From the NCBI GenBank assembly GCA_002335605.1, contig BEDY01000001.1:2666001-2730000 (forward strand): a DNA stretch of 64,000 nucleotides. Direction: 5' to 3'. Below the pieces are notes generated by a model. That model was not told the origin of the DNA and did not search any database. It saw nothing but the letters and a program-made list of their open reading frames with translations. This document shows, piece after piece, positions 12,760-47,105 of this stretch. The position numbers were made by a program, and so were the translations under genes. How positions within the stretch are numbered: position 1 is the first letter of the stretch; every line of letters starts with the position of its first letter. This DNA is from Prillingera fragicola. Its lineage: Eukaryota > Basidiomycota > Tremellomycetes > Trichosporonales > Trichosporonaceae.

Positions 12760-12770
12760 TTTGATTCCGT
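12760..12770 (+). promoter_or_regulatory. TTTGNTTCCGT element (SND1/DUG3)
   Basis: TTTGATTCCGT, an exact match to the recurring divergent-promoter motif of this window. It lies 204 bp from the SND1 ATG and 346 bp from the DUG3 ATG. Confidence 0.55.
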
Positions 12771-13115
12771 TTGAAATGAAAGTGGAGGCGTGACTCGAGA
12801 TCACCCGCCCATTGCCACAATCGTCCATTGGGTGACCAGGTCGCGTGCAACATCTCTGTGGTCTCTTCCAACAACTCACACTCCGGAACACTGTGCTCGT
12901 CGTTGACTGACTAGCTCATTTCAACTTGGGACAACTTGGCTGCGCAGTGGTGCCCTCGGCTTCCATCGGTACCCCGGACACCCATTTGTGTATCTCGGCT
13001 TGTCGTTGGATGACGTGCTTGGCGTGAACATCTCAAGACTCGACATCGCGTCCACCCAACGGCTTTTGCTGCTATTGACATTCGACTCTATCTCACACCA
13101 GCTAACACATCAAGC

Positions 13116-14499
13116 ATGTGTCGCTTTGTAGGTCACAACGCTGCAGGCCACAGCTAACCGGCCAGATTGTATACAAAGGCGCCGAGCCATTGCAACTATC
13201 ACATCTTGTCACCCGTCCGCGACACAGTATCACAAACCAGGCGTTCGAGTCCAAGCTCCGCTTCCCAAGCAGCAGGCCAATGAACGCGGACGGCTTTGGC
13301 ATTGGCTGGTATGACTCGGAACTGAGCGAACTCCCTGTCCATGCATCGGGCGCACCTGCAGGCAACCCAGCACAAGGCATAGACACCAAGCCCGGCACTC
13401 CTGTGCCCCGGAGCACACCTCCCCTCGCCGCCGAGGCGGGACCTTCGACCTTGAGGACGGGGACACCGGCACCTGCCGCCGACCATGTTGCCCAGGACGG
13501 CGCCGTCGTTCACCCTGCCGACGAGATGGCGGCGCTTGCTGAAGAGGAGAAGCGAACGGCCGAGATTGCCCAGTTGCGGGAACGTGAGATTGAGGCCGAG
13601 ATGGAGAGGCCGTGTATCTTCAAGTCGACATCGCCTGCGTGGAGCAATGCGAACTTGACCCGCTTGGCGGAGAAGATTCGTAGCCCACTGGTCTTTGCGC
13701 ATGTCCGCGCCTCGACCATGGCTGGAGCTCCGAGTGAGGACAATTGCCACCCGTGGATCTTTGACCGCCTGATGGTGAGTTGAGTCTTCAGATACAGAGC
13801 TGACGTGCAGTGGATGCACAATGGCGAGATCAACGAGTTCCCCAAAATCAAGCGAGCGCTGCAAGCAACGCTCTCGGACGAGCTCTTCTTGTACCCATCG
13901 GGGTACACTGATTCCGAATGGGCGTTCATGGTCTTTCTGTCAATGCTCAAGGACCCACATGCCCAGTCGTTTACTCACGCCGAGCTGCGTGACGCCATGA
14001 TGAAGACGATTCAGCTGATTAACAGGCTCTCCAAGGAGGCCGGCATCGTGGGTTATGCTACCCCCGCAGCGCTGACAGCCAGACTGGTCCGAGTTTGATG
14101 AACTATGTTGTCACTGATGGTCACACTGTCGTCGCAACCCGCTACATCTCATCGCGCACCTCGGAGGCCTCTTCCCTCTTCTTCTCCTCGGGCACCAGCT
14201 TCGACGAGTACGACCCTGCGGCAGGTCTCTACCGCATGACCAAGTCGGACAAGCGGGAGCGCATCATCATGATCGCCAGCGAACCTCTCACCTTTGAGCG
14301 CACCGACTGGATCGAAGTCAAGACCAACATGCTCCTCGTCATCACCCCCAAGATGAACCTGCTCCAAATCCCCATCATTGACGAGTACTGGGTCTCGCCG
14401 CAGGACCCAGCCAGTCACACTCGTTCGCCAGACTTTGCGATCCAGCTTGGATTTGGTCACGGCTTTGCGTACGACAGCGCAATCGCCGGTGCCGCATAG
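13116..14499 (+). CDS. DUG3: Dug3-type glutamine amidotransferase (glutathione degradation)
   Basis: Dug3 is the Ntn-type glutamine-amidotransferase-like subunit of the (Dug2-Dug3)2 complex that cleaves the gamma-glutamyl bond of glutathione in the cytosol. Exons are 13116-13127, 13166-13774, 13811-14047 and 14083-14499, giving 424 residues. The mature protein starts with the catalytic Cys2 (MCRF, then IVYKGAEPLQLSHLVTRP after a 38-nt intron). RPMNADGFGIGWYD, SPLVFAHVRAST, NCHPW and MWMHNGEINEFPKIKR are family signatures. Residues ~61-150 are an Ala/Pro-rich, then charged coiled insertion that splits two conserved blocks and is not expected from the core family. Introns are 35-38 nt with CTGAC/CTAAC branch sites. 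Identification is firm. Confidence 0.93.
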
Positions 14500-14909
14500 A
14501 CATGGCCAGTTAGTTCCTGGCTCTCCACGCCGACGGTTGGCCCAGGTCGTTCCGGCGCATGGCTCCCTGCAGGCAGTGCCCGACGGGAGTACGTCGGCGC
14601 CGCCCCAGGTCCGGTCCGCGGGGTAACTCTCCCTTTTGGTGGCTATGCGGACCTGACCTTGACCATGTATTTTCTCTTTATCAACTTTTCCTCATCATTG
14701 CCACATGACACGACACGCAGCAATCTCCTGCATTTGTACTACCAAGCAATAGCCGCATGCACTGCGTATGACCCACTGCCTCACTATTATCGTCGGTGTC
14801 GTCATGTAAACACGTTATGTACCAATGGTCCGTACTGCCAGCGCTCCGGGCGCCAGCTCTCCTCTGCACCCTCCTCTCTCCTCTTCGCTTCAACCAAGAC
14901 ATCAACAGA
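14500..14909. other. Intergenic between convergent DUG3 and the 1175-residue gene
   Basis: This is 3' flanking sequence of both genes. I see no conserved ORF, RNA gene or repeat. Confidence 0.6.
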
Positions 14910-17900
14910 TCAAGGCGTCATCCCCGCATCAACAGGCACATCGGCCGCCTCGCGCCGCGGCTCTGGCGTCGCAGGCTTGCGCGCAGAAATGTAGTCTCCA
15001 GCAGACAACTTGCCGTCTGGGCTGTCGGCCAGCTCAATCTCGTTGACCTCCACGGCGTCTTTCCCCAGCACCGCCCCGTGGCCGTTCGCGTTTATGTGCG
15101 AGGGCCGCGCCTTGGGGGTTGGGGTTTGGGTTTCCTCGAGAGTGGCCGCGGTGGGTGCTGCTGGAGACGCCCCGGCGGAGAGCGCGAGGGGATCAATGTC
15201 CACGGGGGCGTCCGGCGTCGCGAGGTCGCTGTCGCTGCCTTGGGGGAGGGCGGGCAGGCTCTTCATCATCGTCTCGGGGGAGAGCTGCTTGCGCTTGCTC
15301 CGCTTGCCGCTGGAGGGGCGCGAGGCTGGGGTGGACGCTGTGGCCGAGGCTGGGGTCGTGGGACCCGTGCCCGTCGCGGTCGTGGAGGTGATTGTCCGCG
15401 CGACGGTGGGCGTGGACGTCGCCGACGAGGCGAGCGTAGCCAGCTGTGAGGCCGAGGTGCTGCGCCTCTGCAGCGACGAGCGGTGGGCCTTGCACCGAGT
15501 TCCGCAGGGGCGCTGCTCGCCGACAGGTCCCTCGCGGCCAGCCAGGAGCCACGCAACGACGCGGTCCTCTGGGCGCGCCACAGTGCCACCACCCGCAGCG
15601 GTACGGGGGACACCGAACTGGCTGAGAATCGCGTCCAGCAAGAGCTGGCACTCGCGCGCGGTCGTCGCGTTGTCGAGCAGGTTGCGCAATGGGACAAGCT
15701 CTGCGAGGGCAATGTGGCCCTCCGGGGTGTCGCCTCCCAGTGCCGCGTACTGCTTTGGCGGGGAGGGAACTTCAGAAGTCTCGGAAGATGCAAGGTTGGG
15801 GCTCGTCTCAACCGAGCCGGGCTCGGAGCGCAGCTCGGCGACGCGGCCGTGGCGGGGTGGTCCGGCCAGCAAGTTGAGTGAGCGCGCCGACGACGAGCGG
15901 TGGCTGATTGCCGGCTTGGACATGTCGTCTAGCATCTCGGACGATCCCAAAGTCCGCTTGAGCGAGCTAGCGCGCGACCCAGACTTTGACGCAGCCGTGA
16001 GCTGCGCAAGTGCTGCTTCGGGGCCCTGCGGGCTAAAGTCCTGCAGCATGTCCGCGCTCCGGATGTCCATGTTGGAGATGCCAAGCCCGCGCGGCTGTGA
16101 CCTCGGCGACTCAGTTTCGTCCTCTTCAATCGGCATCGGCAGGGCGCCAGTCGTGTCCCGGCGCTTGCGGCTCGCCGTCCGCGAAGGCTCCGAGGCAGTC
16201 ACCTGAGCGGCCCATTTGCGTACGAGCGACGGCTTACGAAGCACTTCCCGCGGGGTGACATGCCCCGAGGAGCCGGGCGACTCGGGTGAGGGTTCCGGCA
16301 CAGGCGATCCGAGTGGTGGCTGGAGGGTCGAGCCCGAGGCAAAGCTGCTGGCCGAGCGCTGCGACTTGAGCTGTGTGGGGGCCTCTCCGGATGAGTTTGA
16401 GCGCATGGCGGCAAGGGAAGGGGAGGGGAGCAACGTCTTTTCTGCCCATCCCTTGAGTCCCTGGTCAGACGTTGGGCCGTTGGAGAGGTCCTTCGGCCTG
16501 TGCGTCGACAGCCGCGACATGAGCCGGGTGAAGCGCGATTTGCCGTTGGCAGCGTCCTTGGACATGGGCTCGTCGTTGAGCTGCACCTGCGGAGGAGGAG
16601 CAGTGTTGGAGAGGAAATCAGCCAGCTCGCGGTCGCCCTGTCGGCGCTCGCTCGGCTCGACGTGCGACAGCCGTTGGCGGAAGACGCCGTTGCCGTTTGG
16701 GTGGTTGTCTGGTGCACCCTCGCTCGCACTTCGCATGGAGCGCAGTCGAGGCTCGGGTGACAATCGTGGCGAGTCTGATGGTTCTGATTCAGAGGCCATG
16801 ACTGGGACGTTGAGGGATTGGGAGAGTGTAGGAGGAGTAGCAAGAATGACAGCTGGCACTGTGCGCACGCCCGTCGAGGCGCGCTGGATAGATGCCGTCT
16901 GGTCAGACTTTAGCAACTCGATGACCGACTGGCCTGAAGCTCCTGGGTCCTCGTCTTCCGACTTTTCTTCAATCGTGCCACCCCGGGGGTGCAGCTTGTT
17001 GGTCGCAGACGACCAGCTCCTTCCAGCCACTTGGCGGTAGCTTGATCCAGCACCCATCCGCGAGTCCACCGTTCCGACCGTGCTCGCTTGGGTGCTGCTC
17101 GACAGCAACGACGACTCGCTCGACGACAGCACGGGTGCAGAGAGGTGGTCGCCGGCTTGCCTGTCCAGTCTCCGGTTAGGCGACGTTTGTGGCGAGTTCT
17201 GTGATTGTCAGGCCTCGCCTCATGGCCCAAAGCTCACCTCAAACGTGCTGAACCGACTCGGCGTCAAGCTGACGCGCATAGTCTCCCCACTGCGAATGAA
17301 CGCGTCAAACTCCTCCTCGGCAGCGTCAGGGATCCTGGGCGAGCTGTCGGCAGAGACCGCAGAGTCCTCGTTGAACGCGCCCAGGAGCTGTCGTGTCCCA
17401 GCGCTCAGGACGCTCGAGCTGCGCTTGTGTTGGTTTGCGTACTGAGTTTTGACGCCAATGACATTCTTCATAAACTCCTGGCTTGCTGGGCGGTTCGACA
17501 TGCTCGAGCTGCCTCCGGCCTTGCGGCTGGCGCTATTCTCGTTTGACGAGTTGAGAGAGCTGCGCGATCCTTGCGGAGAGGCGTCCGTCGAGGCGCCGAC
17601 GCCACTTGCTGTCCGAGGTGCTCCTGACCCACTCGCCGTCCTCTGTCCGCGTTTCTTTGCCACGACGCGTATTTCGGCCTCGAGCTGGTGGCGCACTGCA
17701 AGATTGTCAGCTTGACGCGCCCCACGAAACGCACCTTCCATGCGCTTGAAGAAGCCGTAGACGCTGTCGTCCTCGCAGAGAGCCGTGTACAGGTCCTGCA
17801 CAGATGCCGACATGACTGACGAATCGCGCGCAACAACTTGAGACAGCTTTGTGAGGATATGCTCGCATATGTGCCTGTGCGTCAGCCTCGGTGCGCCACT

Positions 17901-18642
17901 ATCGTACCCACTCGAGGATCGCAGTAAGCCACAGTCCAGAGGGGGACACGGTGTCGTCCTGGAGCTCGCCACCGGCGCCTGCCCAAGCCCTAGAGACCTT
18001 GTCGGGCACTGAATCTGCGACGGGTGGTGCGAATGTCTGCAGGTGGGGGGAGAGGAGTCGTCAGCCTATTTGTTCGCATGCGGCGTATCCGGGACAGTCG
18101 CGCAGGGCAGTCGCATAGGCACTCACAGAAAACGTAGCCACCTTTAGTCGCATGAGCTCAACGGCCTCGCGTGCTGGAAAGGGCCGGTCCTCGCACTCGG
18201 CGGTCAAGCCCTTGCCGTGACCATCAGGAGGGTAGCCCGATACGCCCTTGCGCGCAGTGGGGTGGCCGTTGTACCAGGCGCGAATTTCGACCTCTGCCTC
18301 GCCGACAGCTGCGCGGCCCAGCGCGCCAAGACTCGCATGCTCGGGCGCGTCACGTTCGACAGCAAAGACGGCAGGGATACCGTACGTGCGTAGATCGGTG
18401 GGGTTGATTGATTCTGCCGACTTTATGATCGTCACGAGCAGCTCGTCGAGCAGCAAGTTGATGTACGCCAGAGCCGGGGCGGCGAGTGTCGTGGGGCGCA
18501 GGTCGGAGAGGAGCGCGTTGGCCGAGGTGGCCGAGACGATTGGATATGTGACATCAGGTGGTGGTGGTCGCGGTCGTGGGGTGCTCGAGGCCGCGGCCGG
18601 TGGTGCGTTCCGTGTTCGCGACGGATCGGGCTCAACAGGCAT
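14910..18642 (-). CDS. Large Ser/Pro-rich protein with histone-fold-like N-terminal region
   Basis: No named family recognised. Exons (minus strand) are 18127-18642, 17912-18036, 17735-17874, 17238-17695 and 14910-17198, giving 1175 residues. An in-frame stop just upstream of the ATG fixes the start. Residues ~40-95 form a helical segment (ALAYINLLLDELLVTIIKSA). After splicing, residues ~203-260 (LTAILEHICEHILTKLSQVV ... VQDLYTALCEDDSVYGFF) closely resemble the alpha2-alpha3 part of histone H2A by eye. From about residue 270 onward the chain is low complexity, rich in Ser, Pro, Arg and acidic residues and probably disordered, with many SP sites that would suit kinase control. The intron at 17696-17734 is 39 nt, so its retention would add 13 residues without a stop. 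The donor at 17911 (GTGGGT) was chosen to keep frame. The gene model is good; the function is unknown and the histone fold is an inference. Confidence 0.75.
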
Positions 18643-20184
18643 ATCGGCGAGCGCAGGCTCTAGCTGGCTGCCGAGAGCCAGTTAGAGAGTTGCGAGGGCG
18701 GTGGTATTGCTACAACGACTGAGAAGCTTTGCAAGAAACCGAGGAAGACGACGAAAGAGTGGAATGCAAGCAAGCACAAGCTGTCTGCTGCTGGGAGCCA
18801 GCCGACGGAGATTGCAAAGCAGCGCGCGCTCGCGAGGCGACAAAGGAACCTGGGCCCTGCCAGAGGGTAAAGTTGGGACTGCAGCCGATGGCTGACGGGT
18901 TGGAGGTCGCGGACCGCGAATGGCGAGGCGAGGGAACAAGGCGTGGCGTGTCGTGGCGTCAAACAAGCTATGAGCGAGCGTCGCGTTTCATAGCCATCAA
19001 ACAGCTGTGAAATGATATGGAAATTGAGTAAGAGTAGTGTACTGTTGACGAAGTAGGACGAGGCTGTAGTCTGACGCTCCTACTGGATGTATGTCGCGAG
19101 GGGGCCGAGATAGCTGCGAGTCGCGCACAGGTTACGTTGACGATGCCAGGCTTTTGACAGGCAAAGCCATTGGGTTTCGTCCCTTGTTCGTTATGGGAGG
19201 TGCAGCCCTGTCTCCCAGGCGGCTCGTGCATCAACCCAGCACGAGAGCGCTACAACTGCTGACGGCAGCAACGACCGCCGTGGGCTGCCCATGTCCAAGG
19301 TTACACTTTGGGCCTCCGGGGCCTGACAGCAAAGCAGAGCGGTGAGTCTGCTGCCCGTCCTTTGCGACGGCTGCAGCGGAGACCAGGGCGGGTCAACCAC
19401 GGAACGTGGATTCGTCGTGGCCCAGACACGCAACCCGGACAGCGTCTGCAGTGTTGAAACGCAGCCTCTGCGGCAGCAGCTGCTCGACAAGCTCAGCCAT
19501 GCTGCATGAAGCACGGCCAGGCGGGGTGTTCCGCAGAGGGGAAGAGGTAAACTTAAAAGTATCAGGCACAGGGAAGATGTGCCTTGAATCCAATGCCTGA
19601 CAAGGCCTGGCTCGAGCTGGACACTACCACACTCGCAGCGCAGGAAGCAGCTTGCACTGCTCCTATTGTGAGGCCCGTACAGCTGGCCCGGGCACACCTT
19701 AGCAACGAGCATTTTGGTCCCATAGCTCCCAAGCTCTCGGGAAGCAAGATAACCACATCGCACGAGCGGAACCTTGCCCGCAGCACTTACCACAACACTG
19801 TTCGCGTCAGAACCGCACTGGCCCTCTGCCAACACGTCCACGAGAGCCAAGCCTCAACCCGCGAGTCCCTCCTTTCACGTGGCCACATTAGTCAATTCCA
19901 ATGCAAGAGCCTGGGACCTGACTCGACAGCGGTGTACCATGCTCGAATGATTCTGCCCATTCCGTCCATTTTCAACTGCCCCTGTTCCGGTACCGTTCTC
20001 CCCGCTCGGGGTCGCTGGCTCACCAGCCTTCGCTCTCTCATGAGAACAAAAAGGCCTTACGCGCTCAACCTGAGTAGCAGGGAAGGCAGTGGAGAGTTTC
20101 AGAAACGAGTAAACGCACAGACGGGCTTTGAGGGTTGACGGCGGCCATCGGCGCCACTCGAGTGGTCTGCAAGGGTGCCATTGC
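18643..20184. other. 1.5-kb intergenic region without a supported gene
   Basis: Open frames exist on both strands (for example 19593-20138 + and 19191-19850 -), but they lack recognisable domains, sensible splice structure or codon usage like the neighbours. It probably contains the promoter of the 1175-residue gene and the 3' region of the orphan gene. CATTCCGTCC at ~19967 only partly matches the recurring motif. Confidence 0.5.
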
Positions 20185-21833
20185 TTACGCCAGCCGGCAT
20201 GCGTCGAAACAGGACAGGGCGCTGGGATCTGCGCCAGGTCCCACTGCCGCCGTGGCTGCCGCGCGCGCCCCTCTGTCGTCGTCGGCACGGGTCGCGCCGG
20301 CTTGGCAGAGGTCGGTGCTGCAGCGGAGCTCGTGCAGCCGGTCCATTTCGTCAGCCGAGACCAGGCGGACCATGATCCGGCGCTCTGGGGGTGACGCCAC
20401 GCGCTCGGCTGGTGAGACGATGCGGTCGTGCTCGTGGCTGAGGTCGACGACGACGTCCTGGCGCCATCTCTCGAGAGAGGCTTCGTCGCTCGTGGTCTTC
20501 CTGCGTGATGCCGAGCGCGCTGGCAGGCTCGATCTGAGCGTCTTAGGGCGGGGCCTGGCTCCGGCAGAACCAGTGTTCAAAGGTGACACTTCTGTAACAC
20601 GTCAGCAAGCCTTTGACGGCCCTGGCGGTCTATCTCACCCTGGCCAGTGCATAATTCTTGCATTGAGCCAGCTTGGGATGACGTTTGGGTTGTAGGAGTC
20701 TGGATTTCCGCGTCATCAGAGGAGGACGTTTCAGCGTTTCTGTCACGGCTTCGAGGGCCATTGTCAGGACGCGCGATCGAGTTGTCGAGCAGGTGGTTGA
20801 CGTAGTTGTTGTAGGTTGTCGAGTGCGGTGTCGCGATGCGCTCCAGAGGTCGGCCCCAAGGTTGCCGCATGAGAATGTTGACCGACCGCTCGACGGTCGA
20901 CCACAATCGGCGAGCAGCTGCGTGGCTGATGGTGTACTGAAATGTGCACATGTCCAAGAAGGGCCGGTCGGAGGGATAGGATGCGATGAGGTCCTGGGCG
21001 AGGAGTTGCAGAGGGTTGATGACCTTCAGTTCAACGATCTCGCTGTATGTCACTCGGTTGTACTTCCGCCGCCTCAGTAGCGCTCGAGGTACCTCGAGCG
21101 CAATGGTAATTTCGAGTGATAAAGGCGTATATGAGACAGACCCCTGTGATGTCTCGAGCACGCATAGCCGGCTGAAGCGCGAGTTGAGCATGACAAGCCC
21201 CAGGCAGGTCCCACATTCGTCCCAGGCTTTGGCAAGGCGATGGAGACTTTGAGCCAAGGCATCGACAGCCCGCGCTTGAGAGAGGACAGCAGTAGCCATG
21301 CAGGCAAGGGGGTAGTGGCTAACCTCGCTCACCAATCCTGCAACCTTCCAGCTCTCCTTGTGGCCAGCTGCAGATATAGTGACTGCCGCTCCAGTGATCC
21401 ACATCCCGGTCTTGCCGGGGACAGAGAGTGGTGTGTCGTCACTCTGATTGTGACCATTTGGTCTGGACACTGGGGCAACTGGGTGCGAGCAGCTGGCAAA
21501 TGTTTGGGGGACAGCCTCCTCCTCCGTGGAACACCAGTCAGCCACCTCGTTGATAGTGGAGACTGCAAAGTGAGCGCCATCCACTGCGGCCGAGATCCCA
21601 ATGTCCCCTGTACAAGTCTCGGACAGCCTAGGAATGCAGGTAAAGACACACTGGGCAAGGTGGGTAAACGCCGGACGAAGGTCGGTAGACCCCAAGCTCG
21701 CGGATGTAATGTGAGCAATGTACTGGCGGATATTGTGGTAGAATGGGTGTGTGCGTGCGTCGGAGCCGTCAAAGCGTGGTGGGCGGTGGGTTCGGACGTA
21801 CGCTGCAAAGGAACCAGCGTTGTGCGTGTCCAT
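20185..21833 (-). CDS. Hypothetical protein, orphan
   Basis: Two exons (minus strand), 20638-21833 and 20185-20590, are joined by a 47-nt intron with a GTGAGA donor and a CTGAC branch site, giving 533 residues. The start MDTHNAGSFAAYVRTHRPPR is preferred over more upstream ATGs because the first ~40 residues of the longer reading are low-information. Residues 1-400 are mixed globular-looking sequence without a motif I know. The last ~130 residues are charged and Ser/Arg-rich, with a run resembling a disordered tail. The intron removes an early stop and keeps a second open frame, which supports a real gene. Codon bias is weaker than in the housekeeping neighbours, as expected for a lineage-specific or lowly expressed gene. 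It is divergent from RPL10. Confidence 0.6.
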
Positions 21834-22147
21834 TGTGAGAGTGTGAGTGCAAGAGATGGCATTGTAAAGGTCATTGGTAGTGAGTGAGAGGCAAGGGTTC
21901 GGGGTATGATGCAAGTGCCGATAAGCACACACACCGGAGATGTGATTCGTGATGGTCACCAGAAGCAGAAGTGTATGTTGTCAACGACCACATCCAGCTG
22001 GACCTCCTCCACCCTGCACATCTTCGGCCAGGACGGAAATGGCATTCCCTGATATACTCCCGCTTCTGCCCAAAGTGCCACATTTAGTCATGGTTCGGGA
22101 TTAAGTGTCCGCCGGGAGAGACCAAATTGCTAAGCAAAGGGTGTAAA

Positions 22148-22158
22148 TTTGCTTCCGT
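22148..22158 (+). promoter_or_regulatory. TTTGNTTCCGT element (orphan/RPL10)
   Basis: TTTGCTTCCGT, an exact match, 482 bp upstream of the RPL10 ATG. It is identical to both copies in the RPL4/bL33m promoter. If RPL10 has a 5'-UTR intron, the true distance to the transcription start would be much smaller. Confidence 0.6.
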
Positions 22159-22267
22159 TGACACTGTACGCCCTGGTGCAGCCTGGGCGAGCAGGAGGGG
22201 CATGCACAGTTGAATGCCTGGTCGCCATCCTCGATCTTGCTCTCAACCCTCAACCGTTAGAAAAAAG

Positions 22268-22635
22268 GTCAGTACAGCAGCGTCACCAGCGACAACACCA
22301 GCAGCGACATGGCATCACTGCACGGGACATACGGGACTACGTCTGGGACACAGTGTACACCGCCTGTGGGTGCTCGGAGGGAAGAAGCGGAAGGACGTCT
22401 GGACATGTCAGAGACGCGATTGCTCAGCAGACAGTGGCGAGTGGGCAGTTTGTCTACTCGTCATATGGCTCTCTCGCCTCGACACCAGACGTCCCAGCAC
22501 CCCTCCCAGCACGTTGGAGTAGCAAGAAGCGCAGCTTTGAGCACTCTGGAGACGTAGAATCCATGTCCTGGCAAGATTTGTCAGCCGAGGTGTCACGTTC
22601 AACCCATCTTGCATCCAGTTGCTGACCTTCTCCAG
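22268..22635 (+). other. Possible 5'-UTR intron of RPL10
   Basis: The acceptor is well supported (branch CTGAC at ~22622, CTCCAG ending at 22635, five bases before the ATG). The donor is not; GTCAGT at 22268 is only one candidate. Leader introns of this kind are common in ribosomal protein genes. Confidence 0.3.
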
Positions 22636-22640
22636 CCAAG

Positions 22641-29115: not shown

Positions 29116-29615
29116 GACGGCACGTCTGGTGCGCGACGAGTAGGAATGGATGAATCCGACGCCTTTGGTATTCCGCACGTAGGAGTGGGATGTGCCGTTG
29201 GGCGTGGACGTGAATGCTGTATTATACACACTGCTGCCTCGTACCAAGAAGAGGAAAGCAGAGTGGATGAGAGAGAGCAATGCATGTGCTGGACGTGTCG
29301 TCGTCGTCGAGAGGGATATGGAATGCGGGGCCCAAGTCGGACAAGCCAGTACAGGAGACGGAACCAAATCTCACACACCATCCACATGCCTGTGGGTGCG
29401 ACACCTGGCGCTGTCAGTTTTTTACCACTTTCTCATCCATTTTCAAGCTTCCATCCACGGCCATCCGCTCAACCAACACGCATTGAAACACGCGCGCATC
29501 GACTCTACGTATCAAGAGCTGCAACTTGCGACCTTTTCTGCCCCGATCCGTGTCCCCTACGGTGTGCTACGCTTGGTGGCGATTTTAGCCGTTTAAGCAG
29601 CGTCAAGTCGCCGTC
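29116..29615. other. Divergent promoter region RGP1 / ESA1
   Basis: No gene is supported. It carries an ACGGAACCAAA element (29358-29368), the reverse complement of TTTGGTTCCGT. The ESA1-proximal half is rich in C and A. Confidence 0.65.
29358..29368 (-). promoter_or_regulatory. TTTGNTTCCGT element (RGP1/ESA1)
   Basis: Reads TTTGGTTCCGT on the minus strand, 243 bp from the RGP1 ATG and 248 bp from the ESA1 ATG, so it is almost exactly centred between the two starts. Confidence 0.55.
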
Positions 29616-34370: not shown

Positions 34371-34381
34371 ACGGAAGCAAT
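34371..34381 (-). promoter_or_regulatory. TTTGNTTCCGT-like element (EMG1/CAB4), one mismatch
   Basis: The minus strand reads ATTGCTTCCGT, one mismatch at position 1. It lies 75 bp from the EMG1 ATG and 106 bp from the CAB4 ATG. A ribosome-biogenesis gene is one of the two partners. Confidence 0.5.
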
Positions 34382-37101: not shown

Positions 37102-37104
37102 TTT

Positions 37105-37153
37105 CTAAAGCAGGTCAGACGTGTGTCGTGGACGAGGGGGTTGTGCTACTCAC
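37105..37153 (-). other. 5'-UTR intron of RPL4
   Basis: On the minus strand, donor GTGAGTAGC at 37153 and acceptor CTGACCTGCTTTAG ending at 37105, three bases before the ATG. The 49-nt length and CTGAC branch site match the coding introns. Confidence 0.65.
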
Positions 37154-37261
37154 GAATGCGATTGAAGGCTAAGAGAGTACAGTCGTCGGCGTAGTCTGCA
37201 AAAGATGCTGCACCCCTCGGACACTGGGCAGCGAACCCACCCAGGCGTGCACCAGCCAATA

Positions 37262-37272
37262 TTTGCTTCCGT
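37262..37272 (+). promoter_or_regulatory. TTTGNTTCCGT element (RPL4/bL33m), copy 1
   Basis: TTTGCTTCCGT, an exact match. It forms an 11-bp perfect inverted repeat with 37354-37364, with 81 bp between the arms. Confidence 0.6.
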
Positions 37273-37353
37273 CAAGAACTTTGGCACGGCGTTTGGCGGA
37301 ATTAGGGCAAAGACGTGTGGCACTTATTGATCCCGCCCGAGGAGTAAGTGGTC

Positions 37354-37364
37354 ACGGAAGCAAA
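37354..37364 (-). promoter_or_regulatory. TTTGNTTCCGT element (RPL4/bL33m), copy 2
   Basis: ACGGAAGCAAA on the + strand, the exact reverse complement of copy 1. It is 81 bp upstream of the bL33m ATG, so each gene of the pair has a copy facing it. Confidence 0.6.
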
Positions 37365-37445
37365 ATGTCAGCAGCATGGACAATCTCGGACATGAACAAG
37401 TTGTACAGCGACGAGCACCATAGAAGTGGACAACAACAGCTCATC

Positions 37446-37694
37446 ATGGCCGTCAAGACCAAGCAGAGGTACGTGGCATGTGTACTAGTCTCAGCTGACA
37501 GCCAGGCGCATTCTCGTCCGTCTCGTGAGCACCGCGCTCACCGGCTTCTTCTACACCACCTCGCGCCCTCGTATCGCTGGAAAGCTCTCAATGATGAAGT
37601 ACGATCCAGTCGGTGAGTGTCTTTTGGCAGTTTGAGCTCAACTGACATGACAGTCAAGAAGCACGTGCTCTTCACCGAGGCCAAGATCAAGTAG
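37446..37694 (+). CDS. MRPL39: Mitochondrial 54S ribosomal protein bL33m
   Basis: bL33 is a small zinc-ribbon-fold protein of the large mitoribosomal subunit. Exons are 37446-37468, 37506-37612 and 37654-37694, giving 56 residues, the standard bL33 length. The spliced protein runs MAVKTKQRRILVRLVSTALT, GFFYTTSRPRIAGKLSMMKY, DPVVKKHVLFTEAKIK. The cysteines of zinc-binding bL33 are absent, as in many mitochondrial and C-minus forms. The frame is open further upstream, but the family starts at MAVK/MAKK. Two 37-41-nt introns in so short a gene hide it from simple ORF calling. It ends 59 bp from the convergent CUZ1-like gene. Confidence 0.92.
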
Positions 37695-37753
37695 CCGTGC
37701 CAAAAACAACGATACCCTATGCATGTATACCCACTCTCGCCAATCTGGGATCT

Positions 37754-38893
37754 CTACTCGGGCCACGACTGGACAAGGACAAGCAGGTCGCCAGTGTCCA
37801 TCTGCTCGCCTGCGGGGAGGGACAGGATGATGCGGTGCGGTGTGCGGGGCTCTCCAGGCTTGAGCCCTACGCGTACAAGACACGGCGACTGTCGTCGTCA
37901 GCTCTGTCTTGGTCCTTTGACTCACATCTTTCTTGACTTGACCTTTTGCGCGCGCCACAATCGTCTCAACAAGCTTGCCACCAGGCATATCCTGTCGTCA
38001 GCTCTGCCTCCCACACTGATCTACTCACCCTGGGCACCAGGACGCGCTCGGCCTTCTTGCCTGTGATCTCTGTCGCAGCATTGCTTGGCGCATACTTGCC
38101 AGCTTTCGCAATCCAAGTTTCCAACCGCTTTCCGTCGGCGTCAACGGCCCACTCGACTGCGACGCTCGTGTCCCGATTGGCGCTGGGAAGAAGCGGTGCG
38201 GCGAGTGAGCGAAGCTTTGTTGTGTGGATCTTGTACACGCGCTCGTCTGCAGACGTTGGTTTGGCCGGAGATGGGGCAGCAGCTGCTGGTGCAGCGCTGC
38301 TGCCCGCTGCCTCGGCACGTTCAGCCAACACCGAAGGAGGGAGCTTTTGTGGTACTGCTGGTGCCATTCGCGTCTTGTCCACCTGTACAGGCATCTTCAT
38401 TCGCTCCTTCCCTGCTGCTTGTGGCATGGTCCGTGCAAGCACCTCTTGAGCAGCAGCCCGTCGTGCTAAGGTTGCGTCATGCTGTGCTGTTTCTGCCCGG
38501 GGCGCAGCACAGTCGTGCGAGGCTTGTGACCGATGTCTAGACAGTCAGCAATCAGGAGCAGCAGCTGTACCACACTCACGCGATGCAGAACGCTTCCCCA
38601 CATCCCATACACCGTACTTCCTTTGCAATACCATCTCCACCACCCCCCTCTACCCCCGCCTCGCGCCCGCCAATACTCTCAATAGTCTCGGCACTGCAGC
38701 CTGGCCGGGAGCACTCGCCAATCTGACGGGCCCGCTTCGACCCCCCGGCGACTTGCGCGTCCGGCTCGCTGCAGCCGTGAGAGTGGACATGCTCCTTGCA
38801 GAAGATGTGAGAGCAGCTTGGACAGGTGAAGGGAAGAAAGTCGACGACGCCGCAAGTGTCGCACTTGGAGCCGACGTCGAGGAGTACCGACAT
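37754..38893 (-). CDS. CUZ1: AN1-type zinc-finger protein with ubiquitin-like C-terminus (Cuz1-like)
   Basis: Cuz1/ZFAND-type proteins link Cdc48 and the proteasome, notably under arsenite or heat stress. Exons (minus strand) are 38580-38893, 38029-38536, 37926-37991 and 37754-37888, giving 340 residues. AN1 finger 1 is CDTCGVVDFLPFTCPSCSHI followed by FCKEHVHSHGC (residues ~11-42). Finger 2 (ECSRPGC ... RCMGCGEAFCIAHRSQASHDC, ~70-120) spans the first intron. After an Ala/Pro linker, residues ~195-340 (ERVYKIHTTKLRSLAAPLL ... HRIILSLPAGEQMDTGDLLV) look like the ubiquitin-like domain of Cuz1. The last two introns, both 37 nt with CTGACGAC before the acceptor, are required to complete that domain. 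Assignment to Cuz1 rather than another AN1 protein rests on domain order. Confidence 0.85.
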
Positions 38894-38972
38894 GTTGTTG
38901 TGTCTGTCAATGGGAGGTTGACGCTGTCAACAATGGTGTCGCGATCAGCAAAGACTCAGCAAGTGACGTCGG

Positions 38973-38983
38973 ACGGAACCAAA
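38973..38983 (-). promoter_or_regulatory. TTTGNTTCCGT element (CUZ1/GGF-repeat gene)
   Basis: ACGGAACCAAA on the + strand, the reverse complement of TTTGGTTCCGT. It lies 80 bp from the CUZ1-like ATG and 88 bp from the GGF-repeat ATG, centred in a 177-bp divergent promoter. Confidence 0.55.
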
Positions 38984-38998
38984 TTTAGGTGAAGCTGA

Positions 38999-39014
38999 AA
39001 AGTGGAGGTCGATC
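38999..39014 (+). promoter_or_regulatory. AAAGTGGAGGTCGATC element, copy 2
   Basis: Identical over 16 bp to 8065-8080, and 72 bp upstream of its gene's ATG (68 bp in the other case). Confidence 0.4.
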
Positions 39015-39070
39015 AGTCCAGTCACCCACAACACTTTCTTGCCACTCGACTCTTCACCACTACAACCACT

Positions 39071-40200
39071 ATGGAGGACGACCCCGAGTTTCTCGCGCTG
39101 TCCGAGAAGCAACGACGTAATGTTGACAAGGCATTTGACCGCGGCGTACGCAGATCTGGCGGGCGGCCGGCAAAACGACGCAGGCTCACTCGTTCAGCCA
39201 AGGAGACGGCCACATCAAGCCTGACGCCAGCGACGGCGACGCCTGGTCCTAGTGGAGGCGGCGGCTTTCTGGACGAGGACGATGCCGGTGGATTCATCCC
39301 AGACGACGACGGCGGAGGGTTCATGCCTGACGAGGGGGGTGGATTCATGCTCGACGACGACATGGGTGGAGGATTCATCCCAGACGATGACGCTGGAGGA
39401 TTCATTCCTGACGACGATGCGGGGGGATTCCTACCCGATGACTCTGGACCATCAACGCGCGCAGGACCATCACGGCTGTCCTCCAAGGCTGGCACGGGTG
39501 CCTCGACCCCCGTCGACGGCGAGCGTGTGCCTCTGCGCGTCATCCCATCGTTGCTCTCTACACTCGGGCTGCCATGCGACAAGGACGTCCTGGACGTCTT
39601 TCGAGCATCTGCCTCAGGATGGTCTGATGGCGGTTCCGCTGAGGAAGGTGCCGTGAGCCGCACAGATTTCCGTGCAGTGTGCGCGGCGCTCATGGAGCCT
39701 GGTGACGGCGAAAGATCCGATGATGACGGGGATGACGACGCACAAGAAGAGGCGTTTAGCAGCGACAGCGAGGACTCGGACGTCTTTCGTCCTTCTGATG
39801 ACGATGACGACGACGGCATGGATGAGGATGTCGACGATGATGGCGAGTATGGCGTCGCACCAAGGAAGCCGCCACCGAAGCGTCGTACCCGTGCCGCCGC
39901 GCTCGAGGAGGCACCGCGCATCAAGCTGACCAGCCAACAACGCGACCTTGCAAAGGACTTGTGGGCCATGCTCAAACCAGATGCCAAAGAGGGGCGTGGA
40001 ATATTGGGAAGGGACGAGGTCAAGACTTGGGTGCGGGAGCTGGGCGAGATGTGGTCAGACGATGAGGTGAGTTTGCTGTGCATGCTGGGGCTGATGGTCA
40101 GATCACGGACATGGTCAAGCTGTTCTCGAGTCAGCATGAGGGACGCGGCCTGTCGTTTGATGACTTTGGAGCTGTCATGCTACGCGCTGGGCTGGTGTAA
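39071..40200 (+). CDS. Acidic protein with seven GGF[ILM]-DD repeats and EF-hand-like segments
   Basis: No named family recognised. Exons are 39071-40066 and 40102-40200, giving 364 residues. A basic patch (GRPAKRRRLTR, ~31-41) could be a nuclear signal. Residues 62-125 hold seven tandem copies of a 7-11-residue unit, GGF-[ILM]-x-D-[DE]-D, such as AGGFIPDDD. Residues ~150-215 (VPLRVIPSLLSTLGLPCDKD ... RTDFRAVCAALM) and ~290-364 (DLAKDLWAMLKPDAKEGRG ... LSFDDFGAVMLRAGLV) look like helix-loop-helix pairs of calmodulin type, separated by a strongly acidic stretch. Canonical EF-hand calcium ligands are incomplete. The 35-nt intron joins the two halves of the last pair, which supports the model. 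The repeats may be multivalent docking motifs. Confidence 0.75.
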
Positions 40201-41761
40201 GCATCACACCACAGCAGCAGAGTTGTAACTGTATCACCACATGCACATGTGCAGCATAGCCCTTGTCACTTGCTCTCCAAAGCAGCCGCGGTCTCGCGGT
40301 CAAAGGCAACTTCTGTACAGTTTAACCATGTTTATCCACTTTTTCCAGAGATCACCCATTCGGCTGAGCCGTACTGGCGTGTCACTTCACTTTGCCCCAG
40401 ACCCCCGGAATTGAGCCAATGTGACACTTTGGCGGGCATCATGTCCTCGCAACCTGACTGGGATTTTGGTGGAATACATGCCCAAAGCTGCAAGCTGAGC
40501 TGCCAGGACAACACGAGCCCAGCGTAAGGGCATGCATTCACCGGCACAAGGCACACTCCTTGCACTCCACAATCAACGACTCGTGTGCGTCCAGCCGGCC
40601 GGCATCTCGCATCTCGGCATGGCCGGGAACGGTTTGATGAACAATACTCTTCATTAGATAGCCGTTAGCGGTACGTTCCGCTCGGCGACCAATCTATAGC
40701 TCCAGTGGAGCAGTGCAAGACCTCCGCGCAAACGTGGACAGTTACGGGTGTCTGTCCACGGGCCACGGGAGCCGGGAGCCCGGGAACTCAGAAGCTTCTC
40801 AACCTTGTCGTCGCCACATGTGCTGCCGAGAAAAACTCTTTCATGGAGCACTGATGTTGATGCTCCACCCAGTGCCTGCCACCGGAGCGACGCGTGGTGA
40901 TCCGAAATCTTCGGACTGGAACCTTTGGGACTGGCTCCTGCAAGGCAACCACGACGTTCCAATGACTCATATGTCTAAGGACAGGCATCTCTTGGGGATT
41001 CCTGTAGGCAGCTGGAGGACAAAAGGTACGGTAGTGCGTGGATCCAGCGAACACCTGAGCGCTGACGCGTGATCGAAAAAAAGACTGGAGCACTGGTGGT
41101 CATTATTGACGCGACAACGCAGATTGTCAGATGGCGAGAATGTAATGTTCTCTACCAAACGGCACTGACGAACATCAAGTGCTCGTGGCTTTGTGAGCAT
41201 CATAAGCCAGTCCATGGCGGGGTAGGGGTGGGGTAGCAGCTTTAAGCATGTAAGTATGGTAGAAAGGGGGGCTGCACAGGCAGTGTGCCTGGCTGAGGCG
41301 ATCACGTAGATTACCCTGGACCACATGTATTTGATCCCGCTCCCTCACTGCAGCCCACATGAGGCTCGGTGACTGGCAGCAGACAGTGGATGGTGGTGGT
41401 GGATGTTCCTGCGATCGTTGTTCAGTCTCGCGTACTCAATCGGTTCCTTCTCACCTTTTCTGGACCTGTTCAGCTCCACACTCTGCGTCCCCACCAAGAT
41501 CTACTCGCCTAGACCTTGTTACGTGGCAGATCCCACGCGCTCCGCAGCGTCTTTACGCGACTCTCCTACCCATGAATCCCACCTGCACAGCCTACCACAT
41601 CTGACGACCACCCTCGCTCCCTACCCCGCACCGGTTTCGGCCCCCGGACTCGGCCGGCATATCAAGACACCAAGTCTCGCTTTCATTGTCATCTACACCT
41701 CCTTGGATTTCGTCTTCATCATCAAGGCGCTCAGACGTCCACTACACTCATTCTGCACACC
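40201..41761. other. 1.6-kb intergenic region, promoter of the Zn2Cys6 gene
   Basis: No gene is supported. The final ~350 bp become pyrimidine-rich (CTTC and CACC runs), as expected of a leader. An ORF from 41403 overlaps the leader and the first exon but has no family resemblance. A long upstream region is typical of regulated transcription-factor genes. Confidence 0.5.
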
Positions 41762-44689
41762 ATGGATCCTTCCATTTCAAGTGCCGGCGGCAACGGTAAG
41801 CAGCCGAGATGGTTTCCCTCAACGTACTGCTGACAGTTCCAACAGGCATAGCCTCCTCGTCGACAGCTCCGACGACCTCATCAGCAACAGATAACACTGA
41901 AGCCCAGGCGGCGGCATTGCCAACTGAACAGTCTTCCCGTGCGTCCCTTTTCGTGTGCCGTCGTCCTCTGACCTAGTGGCAGTGGCGAAAAAGGTGGACG
42001 TCTCCCACTTTCCTCATTATGGTCTCAAGCGTGGCATGTAAGCAGGTTGCGGGCTGCAAGGGTACAGAGCTGACACGACAGGGCGTGCACGTTCTGTCGG
42101 CGGCGTAAATTGGTACGCAACACCATGCTAGCGTCGGTGAGCCACTGCTGACCTCTCCAGCGATGCTCCGGCGACCGACCGTTGTGCACCAACTGCGTAA
42201 AGTACACAAAGGTGTGCGAGTATGGCCCGCCCGTCAAGGACTCGAAACGCTCCAGCTCTGCCCGCACGGATAGGCCATTGACGGGATTTGAGGCTCAGCC
42301 AATGCACCACTCTGTCCCGGTGCCCGGTCAGCCCAGTATGGTCCTTCTGGATCACCAAATGCAACAACAGATGGGGCAGATGCCTCATCACTTGTTGTAC
42401 AGCACCCAGCCATTGCCACAGCAGCCATTGCTACAGCAGTCACTACCACAGCAACCAGGTGGGTTCGACTACATGTCCTCCATGTACTCGGACTCGCCCA
42501 TGGTGGACGCCGTCCCGGGCGAGACACTATCCTACCAGTCGACAACGTACACCGACTTTCAGCAGCCGACAGGATCTTTGCCCGGCCACCTGACTGCCCA
42601 GCCAACAGTTGGCATGCCACCGTATGTGCGCACACCAGATGGTTTCCAGCAGCACTTTCCCAACAACACACCGCCACCCCAGGCACAGCAACAGGTACCA
42701 CAACAGTGGGTGCCGACACCATCACCGCAGGTGTCGCAGGCGTCGTACAACATGTCTCAGCAATCTTCAATGATGGAGATTCAGACACCACCAGTGTCGA
42801 GAAACTCGATTTCTGGGGCGTACATGATGGACCAGTATACCACCGAGCCATTGTTTGACCAGCACCTGAACGCAGGGGGCATGTCCGAGCTGCAGTCTGG
42901 ATCCACCTCACACTTGACGTCGGGACCGTCCACTCCAGACGACCCACGTGCGCCGAATGGGAGCAAGAACCGAGCGACGTCGACCAACTCGAACACACCG
43001 TCGTCAACAGCTACGACCTCCCGCCCCCTTGCGTCGAGCATGTATCGCCACTCGCCGAGTCTGCACTACGTCGCGGATGTCACTGTCGTGGAAGGCATCA
43101 CTGAGCGCCTGGGCGAGTTCTTGTTCAGCCCCAACGCGAGTGCTGTCAAGGAAGAAGAGACATTCAAGCGTCGCCGTGGCCATTCAGGCAAGCCAACGGG
43201 CCCGATGAGCCCTTCGTCTGTGATGCGCATGCGTACAGAGCACGACGGACTGATGGACGCCTCGCGAAGCTTGCTTCTCGACTGCTTTCTGGCCCACTGT
43301 ACGCTCTTCTTTGAGATGAGCGTACCGCGGTTCCGCTACCGCATGACATTTATGGACCGCCGGAGGCCGAGTCTGGCTCTTCTGAACGCCATGTACCTGT
43401 GGGCGACGCGTATTTCCAACTCGCCACAAATGTCCAACATGGAAAAGCACTTTTTCGAGCAGGCGTGCAAGCACCTCGACCTGTCGACGTCGACGGTCGA
43501 CCGACTCATTGACGCCGTACGCGCGGCGATGCTGCTGTCAGCGTACTCGCATTCGTCTGGACGACATCACGAGGGCTGGTGTCTCGCTGGTGTCGCTATC
43601 CGGCTGGTACTCTCGTGCGGCTTGCACCGGATCAAGTCGTGTGTCCACCAGCCGGAAAAGGCCAACAACCCATTCCTGCGCAACCGTGTGTTTCTGCTTC
43701 CACCGCCCGAGGATGCGGTCGAGCTTGGCGAGCGAATTCACGCCTTCTGGGCTGTATTTGCCATTGACCGCTGCGGGTCCGTGGCGACGGGCTACCCCGC
43801 TGGCATACGTGATGAGGAGATTACGACGCCGTTTGGCCGCCACTTGGTGGACATTTCTTCTGGTGCGGTATCAGAGGCCGACGACCTCACTGTGCGTGAC
43901 CTGTACTCTGGCTCGGCTGTGGCCACCGAGCACGACACGCCCTACACCAAGTGGGTCAAGTGCGTTGCCATTCTCGAACGCGCCTCCAAGCTCTGCTTTC
44001 TGGAACCCGCCGAGGACTCGCCGTACGCCAGGGCATGGAATCAGTATACGCTCACGCTGCACCACGACCCGAACCAGGCGCCGCCGGACGAGACGCTCAA
44101 CCAGGCAAAGTACCGTAACCCACGCGACTACCGCGAGTGCCTGCTTGCTATTGAGCAGCTTGTCGGGGCTATTGGCAGCGAGGGCGTCTTTCCCGTCCAC
44201 CGCAGAATGCACGCCGAGCAGGACGGGACCCCGGAGCCTGTGATCCCTACCAACATTGTGATGCTGCACCACCTCATCGCGGCCGTGCACATGATGCTGC
44301 ACGACGTCAACAGCCTGGACGTAGAGAACACTGAAGCGGTCAAGGCCGCGCGCAAGTCTGTGCTGCTCTTCCGCGCCATGCCCCAAATCCCGTTCACGGA
44401 CGTGGACGCCTTTGTGGTCCTGGTATGGTCCCTCATAGCCAAGGTCCTCATCAAGGAGACCCACCGCCTCGTCCTCCTGGGCGACCTCGAGGGCGCGCAC
44501 GCGGCCAGCAGCGACGCCGACACGATTATCGAAGAAATGAACCGCATAGGCCAGACAATGTACCTGGCGCGCACGCAGGCCAAGGCCGTCGAAGAGCTCA
44601 AGCACGCGGCGCTCGCGGCGGGGCAGCCGGGGGAGAGCGCCGTCGTCGTGCCCCAGCTGGAGAGCTTCATGTTCCCCCAGCAGATGTAG
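41762..44689 (+). CDS. Zn2Cys6 (Gal4-type) transcription factor
   Basis: A fungal binuclear zinc-cluster regulator. Exons are 41762-41795, 41846-41938, 41977-42037, 42082-42112 and 42161-44689, giving 915 residues. The zinc cluster is assembled only after splicing: C65-TF-C68-RRRKLR-C75-SGDRPL-C82-TN-C85-VKYTKV-C92, a perfect CX2CX6CX6CX2CX6C, split by the last two introns. Residues ~110-290 are Gln/Pro/Met-rich, a likely activation region. The fungal_trans middle homology region lies around 400-560 (LLDCFLAHCTLFFEMSVPRF; HEGWCLAGVAIRLVLSCGLH). Target genes cannot be read from sequence. It is convergent with RPL14. Confidence 0.9.
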
Positions 44690-45285
44690 CCCTGCGGCTC
44701 CATTTCGGGTTTGAACAAGGAGGAGGGGAAAGGAGAGAATGGACATTGTGTAGCCCTGCATTGACACCGTTTAGGACATACCCTGCATTATTGTATACCT
44801 TGCAATCTGTACAGTAGATTACCCACTCTAGCATGCATCACAACGAGATGTGCAACGCCTAGCAGCAACATGTGTGGAACGAATTGGCAGATGGCCAGAC
44901 TCGGCAGACAGTTGCCTTTATCCCATTATCGCCCGATCTTGTCCGGCAAACCACGTGTCAGCTGTGGAGATCGTGGAGATAATCACGTCCGCTCATGTTG
45001 GGGATTGCATGGCTTGCTCTGTGCGACGTCGTCGGACTCGAACTCGGACACGGTGTGAGGAGCCCGTTGTGTGTCTGCGCAGCCAAGTCAATGCGCTCTT
45101 ATGGCAGACGTTGTGCCAATTAAATGTGCGAAAAGACACGTTCTCAGTGAGTGGATCAGTGACATCTCTCTGTGCCGCTGTCCCGCCAAGTGCTTCGCAA
45201 TAGCCAGTAATGCGAATGAGCATGTCATCAACCGACACTCTACAAGTGCCGCGCCATCTCCCTATACACCAAGGTTACACTGCAC
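44690..45285. other. Intergenic between convergent Zn2Cys6 gene and RPL14
   Basis: 3' flanks of both genes; I see no ORF, RNA gene or repeat of note. Confidence 0.6.
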
Positions 45286-46112
45286 TTAGGCAGTGGCCTT
45301 GCGCTCCTTGAAGTGAGCCTTGCGGACAACATCCCGGCGAGCCTTCTTGGCGAGCATGACCTGGAAGCGGTCAAAGTCGGTCGAGTTCTGGTAGATGTTA
45401 GTGCTGGTAGACAACAACAGGCAAGACAAGACGCACCTTGCGAACCTGGCGAGCGGCGAGCTTCTTGGCCCAGGCCGAAGCCTCCCACTTCTCCGAGACA
45501 CCCGACTTCTCAAACGCCTTCTTGATGGCACCCGAACCGGCGCCGCGGGGGAGCTTGGAGATGGTGTAAGGGGTGAGGATGAGGTGGCGGTAGGGGAAGG
45601 ACTGGCGGGGGACACCGGCGGCGGGGCCCTCGATCAAAGCACGGTTGTGGTCAATGATCTCGGCAATGACGGCGAGCTTGCCGGCCGAGGGGCCGTCGTT
45701 GACGAGAACGACACGGCCAACCTCGACGAAACGCTTGAAAGTAGAGGGCTGCTGCGACTGGGGGTTGGTTAGTATGGACCTTGAAGGAAGGTTGCAGACA
45801 CATCAGGCGGGCGGTTCGACATTGACAAGACGACGACGGTCCGGCTCGATAGCGCTGCGACGGCGCTCCCCAACACTCTCCCCCTCTGCGCGCGCTCTCC
45901 CTAGCGCCCTCGCCATCCTCTTTCACACTCCAAGCCATCCTCTCCTTTCTCCAAATGTCGATTCAACATGTCGACATGTTCACAACACATTCGCGCGCGC
46001 ACCGTCGTCGAGCTCGAATCCGCGTCTGTCGATACTGTCGTCGTCGTGGGGTCGTCGTCGTCGTCGTAGTCGTGTCCGCGCTGCCTGATGTGTATGCTAT
46101 GCTACTCACCAT
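45286..46112 (-). CDS. RPL14: 60S ribosomal protein L14 (eL14)
   Basis: eL14 sits on the solvent side of the 60S subunit. Exons (minus strand) are 46110-46112 (the ATG alone), 45437-45757 and 45286-45387, giving 141 residues (yeast 138). The spliced start is MSQQPSTFKRFVEVGRVVLV; KLAVIAEIIDHNRALIEGPA, FPYRHLILTPYTISKLPRGA and DFDRFQVMLAKKARRDVVRK are diagnostic. The first intron (45758-46109) is 352 nt, the longest coding-region intron here. It holds a TCG/CGT microsatellite and ends in CTAACCAACCCCCAG. I looked for snoRNA boxes in it and saw none. An exon with only the start codon is typical of ribosomal protein genes. Confidence 0.94.
46037..46073. repeat. TCG trinucleotide microsatellite in RPL14 intron 1
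   Basis: Interrupted run of TCG units within the first RPL14 intron, not coding in the model used. Confidence 0.75.
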
Positions 46113-47105
46113 GGCGACCACTGCTCCAGCTTTTGCTTGATGGATGATAGAGTCCTGTTGCTCGTAGCGTTCACGACCACCGACCAGGGGAGCACGGCCA
46201 GCCAGAACTGCAAAGGGACCAAAACCTGCCACGAATCGTCGGACTTGGGCTTAGCTCCGACAGTTTCGTCCTCGGTTTGGGCGGGAGTATTTTGTCTCAC
46301 AAAACCGGGGGATGGAATACAATATGTTACACAGGTCTCGCACTAGCAGTGGTCCAGATAAGAATTCCTCCGCCGGGCCATTTGCGCCCTGCCAAAGGTG
46401 CCGGGGTGGCAGGCTCGATCTGTATTCAGGGTTCACGAATGACGCGATTCGCTAGTGTACTGGTGTCATTTGATTCCGTCCTGCCCAGTCTGCATGCATG
46501 CATGGCTGATTGGTGGCTGTGGTAGCCGGAGCAACCTCGGCCGTATTACTCGGGCTATGGACCTGCCGAATGGGGCAAGTAGCAGTTGTTGTTCCCCCGC
46601 TGCACTAATCCGCTCGGGTTTGTGGATGGGAATAGCCTGGGTAAAGCAAGCGGAGACCAGGCGTGGGACCCGAGGGGCGCAAGGGCTGACATAGCAAAAT
46701 GACAAAGCTGATTCATGCGCCCAGCCAACCACCAGTGTCGACTCGCTTCCGAGGGGTCCGAGCGCGATCCCCCTGCGCCCGTGCGCCCGTGCGCCCCTCG
46801 TCCACCACCCATCAACGCCCCCTGCGTCGCTGTTCACCAACTCTCTTCTTCTCTTTCTTTCTTCTTCTTGTCCATTCACCCTACACCCAAAAACAGCAGC
46901 ACCCAGAAGAACGTCTACCCGACAGACGACTCTTAGCCTGCAACCAACAACGCGACCCAAAACAACACTCCTCGTCGACACCTACCTACCCCCTCGACAA
47001 AACCCCGACAACCCCCGGTGCTAAAAGAGACACACGTTTCTAAAGCCAACCTTCTTCCTTCCCCCTTGTTCGACACTCGCTTTCTACCCCCAAACTACAT
47101 TCACA
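46113..47105. other. Divergent promoter region RPL14 / bZIP gene, with a long ATG-free bZIP leader
   Basis: It contains a TTTGATTCCGT element (46469-46479). The ~350 bp before the bZIP ATG are C/T- and A-rich (leader-like) and contain no ATG, so uORF control of the GCN4 type is not seen unless transcription starts before about 46720. Confidence 0.6.
46469..46479 (+). promoter_or_regulatory. TTTGNTTCCGT element (RPL14/bZIP)
   Basis: TTTGATTCCGT, an exact match, 357 bp from the RPL14 ATG and 627 bp from the bZIP ATG; the preceding CA extends the match to the ATTTG form of the other copies. Confidence 0.55.

Follow-up and report, generated by a model that had tools for sequence, protein, structure and literature searches.

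A candidate protein-binding word, TTTGVTTCCGY, in housekeeping-gene promoters of a Trichosporonales yeast

A 64,000-nucleotide stretch of contig BEDY01000001.1 from the Trichosporonales yeast Prillingera fragicola (Tremellomycetes; positions 2,666,001 to 2,730,000 of the forward strand), hereafter the window, contains seven exact copies of the 11-bp word TTTGNTTCCGT. A first-pass annotation of the window had drawn attention to these seven copies, and they stand at the places it gave; only 0.08 would be expected from 100 dinucleotide shuffles of the window, none of which produced more than 2. This raises the question of what a word so strongly concentrated between genes might do. Here, we describe its sequence, its abundance across the genome, its position relative to predicted genes and the genes that lie beside it. 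Refined to TTTGVTTCCGY (V = A, C or G; Y = T or C), the word is very likely to be bound by a protein in promoters, and a sequence-specific DNA-binding protein is likely to recognize it in the promoters of housekeeping genes.

Sequence definition and genome-wide abundance

Across the genome (17 contigs, 20.25 Mb), TTTGNTTCCGT is present in 293 copies (137 and 156 on the two strands), compared with 33 copies of the reversed word that served as the control (21 and 12). Dividing these counts by the base at position 5 revealed an excess for A (99 vs 1 reversed), C (126 vs 9) and G (60 vs 11), while T, obtained by subtraction, was at background (8 vs 12). The word is therefore TTTGVTTCCGT (285 vs 21 reversed), which bears out the earlier suggestion of A, C or G at position 5. 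The last base could also be C, as 198 copies of this form were found against 16 reversed, while A or G was much less tolerated at this position (93 vs 41). We refer to TTTGVTTCCGT as the T form and to the same word ending in C as the C form; the combined word, TTTGVTTCCGY, totals 483 copies vs 37 reversed. When one mismatch was allowed anywhere, the excess dropped to 1277 vs 623 and consisted mostly of the exact and C-ended forms. Immediately before the word an A was favored (35/60 T-form sites and 16/25 C-form sites), and a pyrimidine followed the T-form word at 49 of 60 sites. Beyond this, flank information dropped to background one or two bases from the word, which is therefore not part of a larger repeat, and local G+C fell mildly at the sites.

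Because the motif was picked after the window had been seen, we considered whether it might be a chance or compositional word, or the remnant of a repeat family. This explanation is next to impossible: the genome-wide counts, together with the window shuffles, rule out chance and composition, and the flank logo, in which no shared sequence is found, rules out a wider repeat. Over-representation relative to matched (reversed) words is instead a property of transcription-factor binding sites. The background for the motif itself was not taken from the loci analyzed below, these having been picked by the motif. Loci L003, L026 and L029, all among the first 30, have a T at position 5; they were excluded from all site statistics. 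The density count and the count of sites near the other housekeeping genes used the 259 of 285 T-form sites that were listed (100 of 126 in the list for base C).

Position of the sites relative to predicted genes

The first-pass annotation had proposed a genome-wide comparison of intergenic and coding sequence, and the outcome agreed with its expectation. In addition to the 293 vs 33 copies noted above, none of 60 T-form sites and none of 25 C-form sites fell within predicted coding sequence, compared with 6 of 20 reversed-word controls (drawn from 21 places; Fisher p = 1.3e-4 vs the T form). The first 39 distinct T-form sites comprised 22 in divergent, 10 in tandem and 2 in convergent settings, plus 5 without a flank, and none was coding. 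The same was true of a random sample of 20 listed T-form sites from other contigs and of 19 C-form sites in sampled regions (19 of 20 picked regions, the twentieth overlapping another). A predicted coding start faced the site in 50 of the 60 T-form cases, at a median distance of 304 bp (quartiles 147 and 456). Confinement of the T-form sites to non-coding DNA near 5′ ends, with a facing start at these 50 of 60, is again what characterizes a transcription-factor binding site.

Sites upstream of coding exons could in principle act at the RNA level, as a signal in 5′ leaders. Such a signal would be read on one strand, and no clear strand preference was seen: the six sites at ribosomal-protein (RP) genes described below comprise 3 in each orientation, and the 12 tandem sites comprise 8 in the same sense as the gene and 4 opposite, numbers too few to exclude a mild bias. 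Furthermore, no Rfam match reached the gathering score in the window or in 19 loci (20 sources). We consider an RNA-level signal extremely unlikely, and an RNA gene is ruled out by the same absence of Rfam matches and by the lack of any tRNA in the window (ARAGORN).

All seven window copies have a predicted minus-strand gene on their left and a predicted plus-strand gene on their right, and the first-pass annotation had accordingly spoken of an element that marks seven divergent promoters. The divergent setting of all seven copies held up, and they occupy six intergenic regions, since the region between RPL4 and bL33m holds two. Divergence was not supported as a defining feature across the genome. 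Once the window and the loci chosen through RP genes were excluded, 47 unselected sites remained (18 divergent, 10 tandem, 3 convergent and 16 with a flank missing), and the 18/28 that were divergent among the divergent or tandem sites do not differ significantly from one half (p = 0.18). The 7/7 divergence in the window is unremarkable because gene strands there alternate strongly, the 26 gaps between window genes being 10 divergent, 10 convergent and 6 tandem. The element marks promoters, and divergence may add nothing beyond that.

Genes beside the sites and a partner word

We next consider which genes lie beside the sites. Pfam domains were matched in 34 of 49 flank pieces from contig C1 (26 of its 27 loci, L024 having no predicted flank) and in 8 of 20 flank pieces from the random sample (20 of the 25 listed were scanned). 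The genes whose 5′ side faces a site encode MED6, V-ATPase subunit c, TCP-1, an armadillo-repeat (importin-alpha-like) protein, the CAF1 nuclease, a myosin, eL6 (L028), a cyclophilin, a PRA-CH/PRA-PH protein, a DEAD helicase, SPC22, a C13 (GPI8-like) peptidase, KIN17 and an IF-2B-family protein. RPN5, tubulin, an H3-type histone and ubiquitin provide no evidence because it is their 3′ side that faces the site. Presence at many unrelated housekeeping promoters is what distinguishes the sites of general regulatory factors; "housekeeping" is used here descriptively and claims no enrichment. One further site (position 1501 of locus L010) lies upstream of a Fungal_trans-domain gene, and the gene on the other side carries an ERT1/acuK PAS domain.

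In the window, all three cytosolic RP promoters carry the word, and the first-pass annotation had made much of this "three of three". To place this on a genome-wide footing, yeast sequences served to locate 24 RP genes independently of the motif (a partial second eL42 match on contig C14 was excluded). An exact site was present within 1.5 kb upstream of 4/24 (uL14, uS15, uL1 and eL42), and adding the C-ended form raised this to 6/24 (eS4 and eL19), so that the element is not present in most RP promoters and the three-of-three proportion fails. In all six cases, ~350 to 570 bp separate the site from the first matched exon downstream. The eL42 site is also found 1553 bp from uS13, which would make a fifth exact case with its site in common with eL42. 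At genome-average density, 0.51 exact cases would be expected (p = 0.002 for 4/24); under the assumption that sites fall only in non-coding DNA making up 45% of the genome, the enrichment has p = 0.03. Among other housekeeping genes, 0/17 had an exact site within 1.6 kb, where the 17 names were assigned from query ranges and several are paralogues. RP genes look enriched for the element, though most are without it.

These results bear on whether the element is bound by a dedicated activator of RP and ribosome-biogenesis genes. Sites upstream of the three window RP genes and of eL6, uL14, uS15, uL1, eL42 and uL10/P0 would suit such an activator, as would proximity to the RP-enriched word described below. 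However, 18/24 of the motif-independent RP genes are without even the relaxed form within 1.5 kb, which rules out an RP-only element, and many of the facing genes are non-ribosomal (MED6, V-ATPase c, TCP-1, cyclophilin, CAF1, myosin, SPC22 and KIN17). A dedicated activator is thus unlikely.

Among the 8-mers of the 24 RP promoters, AAACTCCG showed the strongest enrichment, with 7 copies in 6 promoters vs 0.19 expected and 6/7 copies on the sense strand. Examples are found at L049 (uL14), C1:1781746, C1:2514770 and C3:661085, and also at L132 (uL10/P0). This word is uncommon genome-wide (182 copies vs 803 of the reversed word). AAACTCCG fits AAYKCCG, a Cryptococcus neoformans motif from the mapping of transcription start sites that is reported to be commoner at broad start-site clusters and had its function left for later study (PMC11302930). 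In the 10.9 Mb where site lists are complete (C1-C3 and part of C4; 100/182 copies of AAACTCCG), AAACTCCG lies within 60 bp of TTTGVTTCCGT in 6 pairs at 5 loci, vs 0.18 expected. AAACTCCG lies 5′ of TTTGVTTCCGT at 5/5 of these loci and on the same strand at 4/5. None was seen within 1 kb of a C form in the same 10.9 Mb, vs 1.7 expected. All five loci had been expected beforehand to be translation genes, and the outcome was mixed: three are, namely uL14, uL10/P0 and a gene for an IF2B/IF5-domain protein, which we read as eIF2-beta from its lysine runs. The fourth encodes a charged protein without a Pfam match, and the fifth lies downstream of what we take to be a uL22-like gene and upstream of a presumed EAF6. 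Separately, the heptamer CGCGCGC, which we take to resemble the yeast Rsc3 site, is over-represented in RP promoters (24 copies, overlaps counted, in 11/24 of the 900-bp upstream regions vs ~6 expected).

TTTGVTTCCGT also pairs with itself, as seven site pairs within 100 bp were found in the 10.9 Mb vs 0.6 expected. A fixed spacing is ruled out, given that paired sites are 15 to 92 bp apart and a site and AAACTCCG 15 to 57 bp apart. This arrangement is informative about another explanation, that the word is a replication-origin element that lies in intergenic DNA by chance. The T form is intergenic and has a mean spacing of ~71 kb, similar in magnitude to the distances between fungal origins. 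Tight pairs, seven copies in 34 kb, a promoter word nearby and few convergent settings (3/31) all argue against an origin element, and we regard it as very unlikely.

Together, these data suggest the following model for TTTGVTTCCGY as a protein-binding site. A protein would bind the word, reading about one helical turn, reject only T at one position and prefer a pyrimidine at another. The sites themselves typically stand upstream of the nearest predicted coding exon that faces them, ~150 to 460 bp away, in either orientation, singly or in small clusters. Rather than switching a single pathway, the protein may act as a yeast-like general regulatory factor, one that opens promoter chromatin or supports basal transcription; a general regulatory factor fits because the sites occur in both orientations, in pairs and at unrelated genes. 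At part of the RP and translation-factor genes, it may be joined with a AAACTCCG-binding factor. The first-pass annotation had offered a general regulatory factor or a ribosome-biogenesis activator; the former is plausible and a link to some translation genes remains, while the latter sits poorly with Pfam-matched flanks that are broadly housekeeping.

Several observations weigh against a promoter site of housekeeping genes. Coding sequence was predicted from the DNA alone, by a self-trained three-periodic model (window and loci). No facing start was found in the DNA covered at 10/60 T-form sites, 3 of which lie between convergent genes and 7 of which have a flank missing. One site is downstream of a Tf2-like retroelement frame (L001), and one exact TTTGCTTCCGT lies between two uL3 exon matches in the sense orientation (C4:663232, L050); this site, tallied as tandem, is probably in a uL3 intron. 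No Pfam match was obtained for 15/49 flank pieces from contig C1 and for 12/20 from the random sample. With regard to translation genes, the exact site is absent from 20/24 RP genes, the difference between 4/24 RP and 0/17 other housekeeping genes is not significant (Fisher p = 0.13), and 2/5 of the AAACTCCG loci are not established as translation genes.

Known elements and the copies in the window

How does TTTGVTTCCGY relate to promoter elements already described? The yeast sites of Reb1, Abf1, Rap1 and Cbf1 are short specific words found in hundreds of promoters, in either orientation and at housekeeping genes. TTTGVTTCCGY resembles them in these traits; its consensus differs from their usual ones. 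HomolD and the Rap1/Tbf1 sites are ascomycete RP promoter elements. Like them, TTTGVTTCCGY is found in part of the RP promoters, but its sequence differs and it is neither restricted to RP genes nor present in most of those tested. AAYKCCG of C. neoformans (PMC11302930) is likewise a Tremellomycete promoter motif ending in CCG; TTTGVTTCCGY is distinguished from it by a TTTG half, a not-T position and a fixed TTCCG, and its A form overlaps AYKCCG only.

Cutaneotrichosporon oleaginosus belongs to the same order as this yeast. A promoter motif was also described there, in the form of a CT-rich motif present in 189/298 upstream sequences of highly expressed genes and, besides a translation-start motif, the sole putative regulatory element named in the text available to us (PMC10506223). 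That motif is a 41-bp pyrimidine-rich stretch, unlike TTTGVTTCCGY, and no word beginning TTCCG or CGGAA occurs in the text of the article, its figures and supplements lying outside the search (PMC10506223). Searches of open-licence PMC text with several exact forms of the word, some as reverse complements, returned no fungal-promoter title among the matches listed. Nor did those matches include a description of the element, where figures, supplements and subscription journals were outside the search. Since no earlier description was met in open-licence text, we regard TTTGVTTCCGY as a candidate new fungal promoter element.

To our knowledge, the promoter logic of basidiomycetes is little mapped. 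Now that the bases allowed at each position of the word are defined and its places in the genome are listed, the general promoter machinery of this group can be tested: there is a known bait for the factor, and the partner word AAACTCCG links the element to a motif already met in Cryptococcus. The element would also help promoter choice in oleaginous yeasts. A wider proposal, which we make tentatively and hold to be possible rather than probable, is that of a Tremellomycete growth regulon built on two elements with no description met in the texts searched. In it, separate factors for TTTGVTTCCGY and AAACTCCG would meet at a subset of RP and translation-factor promoters, and TTTGVTTCCGY would also serve more generally to open the promoters of housekeeping genes, in place of Rap1, Tbf1 or Reb1 in ascomycetes.

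Table 1 Copies of the word in the window (position 1 is the first letter of the window; strands of flanking genes in parentheses)
Copy	Position	Strand	Setting
TTTGATTCCGT, exact site	12760..12770	+	Between SND1 (-) and DUG3-like gene (+)
TTTGCTTCCGT, exact site	22148..22158	+	Upstream of RPL10/uL16 (+)
TTTGGTTCCGT, exact site	29358..29368	-	Between RGP1 (-) and ESA1/MYST (+)
ATTGCTTCCGT, single-mismatch copy	34371..34381	-	EMG1/CAB4; not counted as a site
TTTGCTTCCGT, exact site	37262..37272	+	Between RPL4/uL4 (-) and bL33m (+), first of two
TTTGCTTCCGT, exact site	37354..37364	-	Second in RPL4/bL33m promoter, 92 bp off, opposite orientation
TTTGGTTCCGT, exact site	38973..38983	-	Between CUZ1-like (-) and GGF-repeat gene (+); gene names from first-pass annotation
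TTTGATTCCGT, exact site	46469..46479	+	Between RPL14/eL14 (-) and bZIP gene (+)

The copies in the window are listed in Table 1. Pfam matches on ten window flank pieces back the names given earlier to SND1, RPL10, Rgp1, MYST/ESA1, RPL4, RPL14 and the bZIP gene; DUG3 (GATase_4) and L33 were matched below the curated cut-offs only, and the flank piece on the CUZ1 side had no Pfam match. Where one single-mismatch copy had been claimed, we found four (9481, 26574, 31963 and 34371) vs ~2.5 from shuffles, and the copy between EMG1 and CAB4 carries little weight because this count is near chance. The window includes the densest 34-kb stretch (positions 12760-46479) among 213 listed T-form sites on contigs C1 to C6 (7 vs a mean of 0.49), and for this reason its 7 copies in 64 kb are not representative of the genome rate, which is lower at ~0.9 per 64 kb. 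When pairs less than 200 bp apart were merged, 48/2000 random placements reached a maximum of at least 6. Finally, the open reading frame at window positions 42182-44689 has PF04082 relatives (Zn2Cys6-type regulators) across the Tremellomycetes, the closest being from Vanrija albida (58%) and Cutaneotrichosporon cavernicola (56%).

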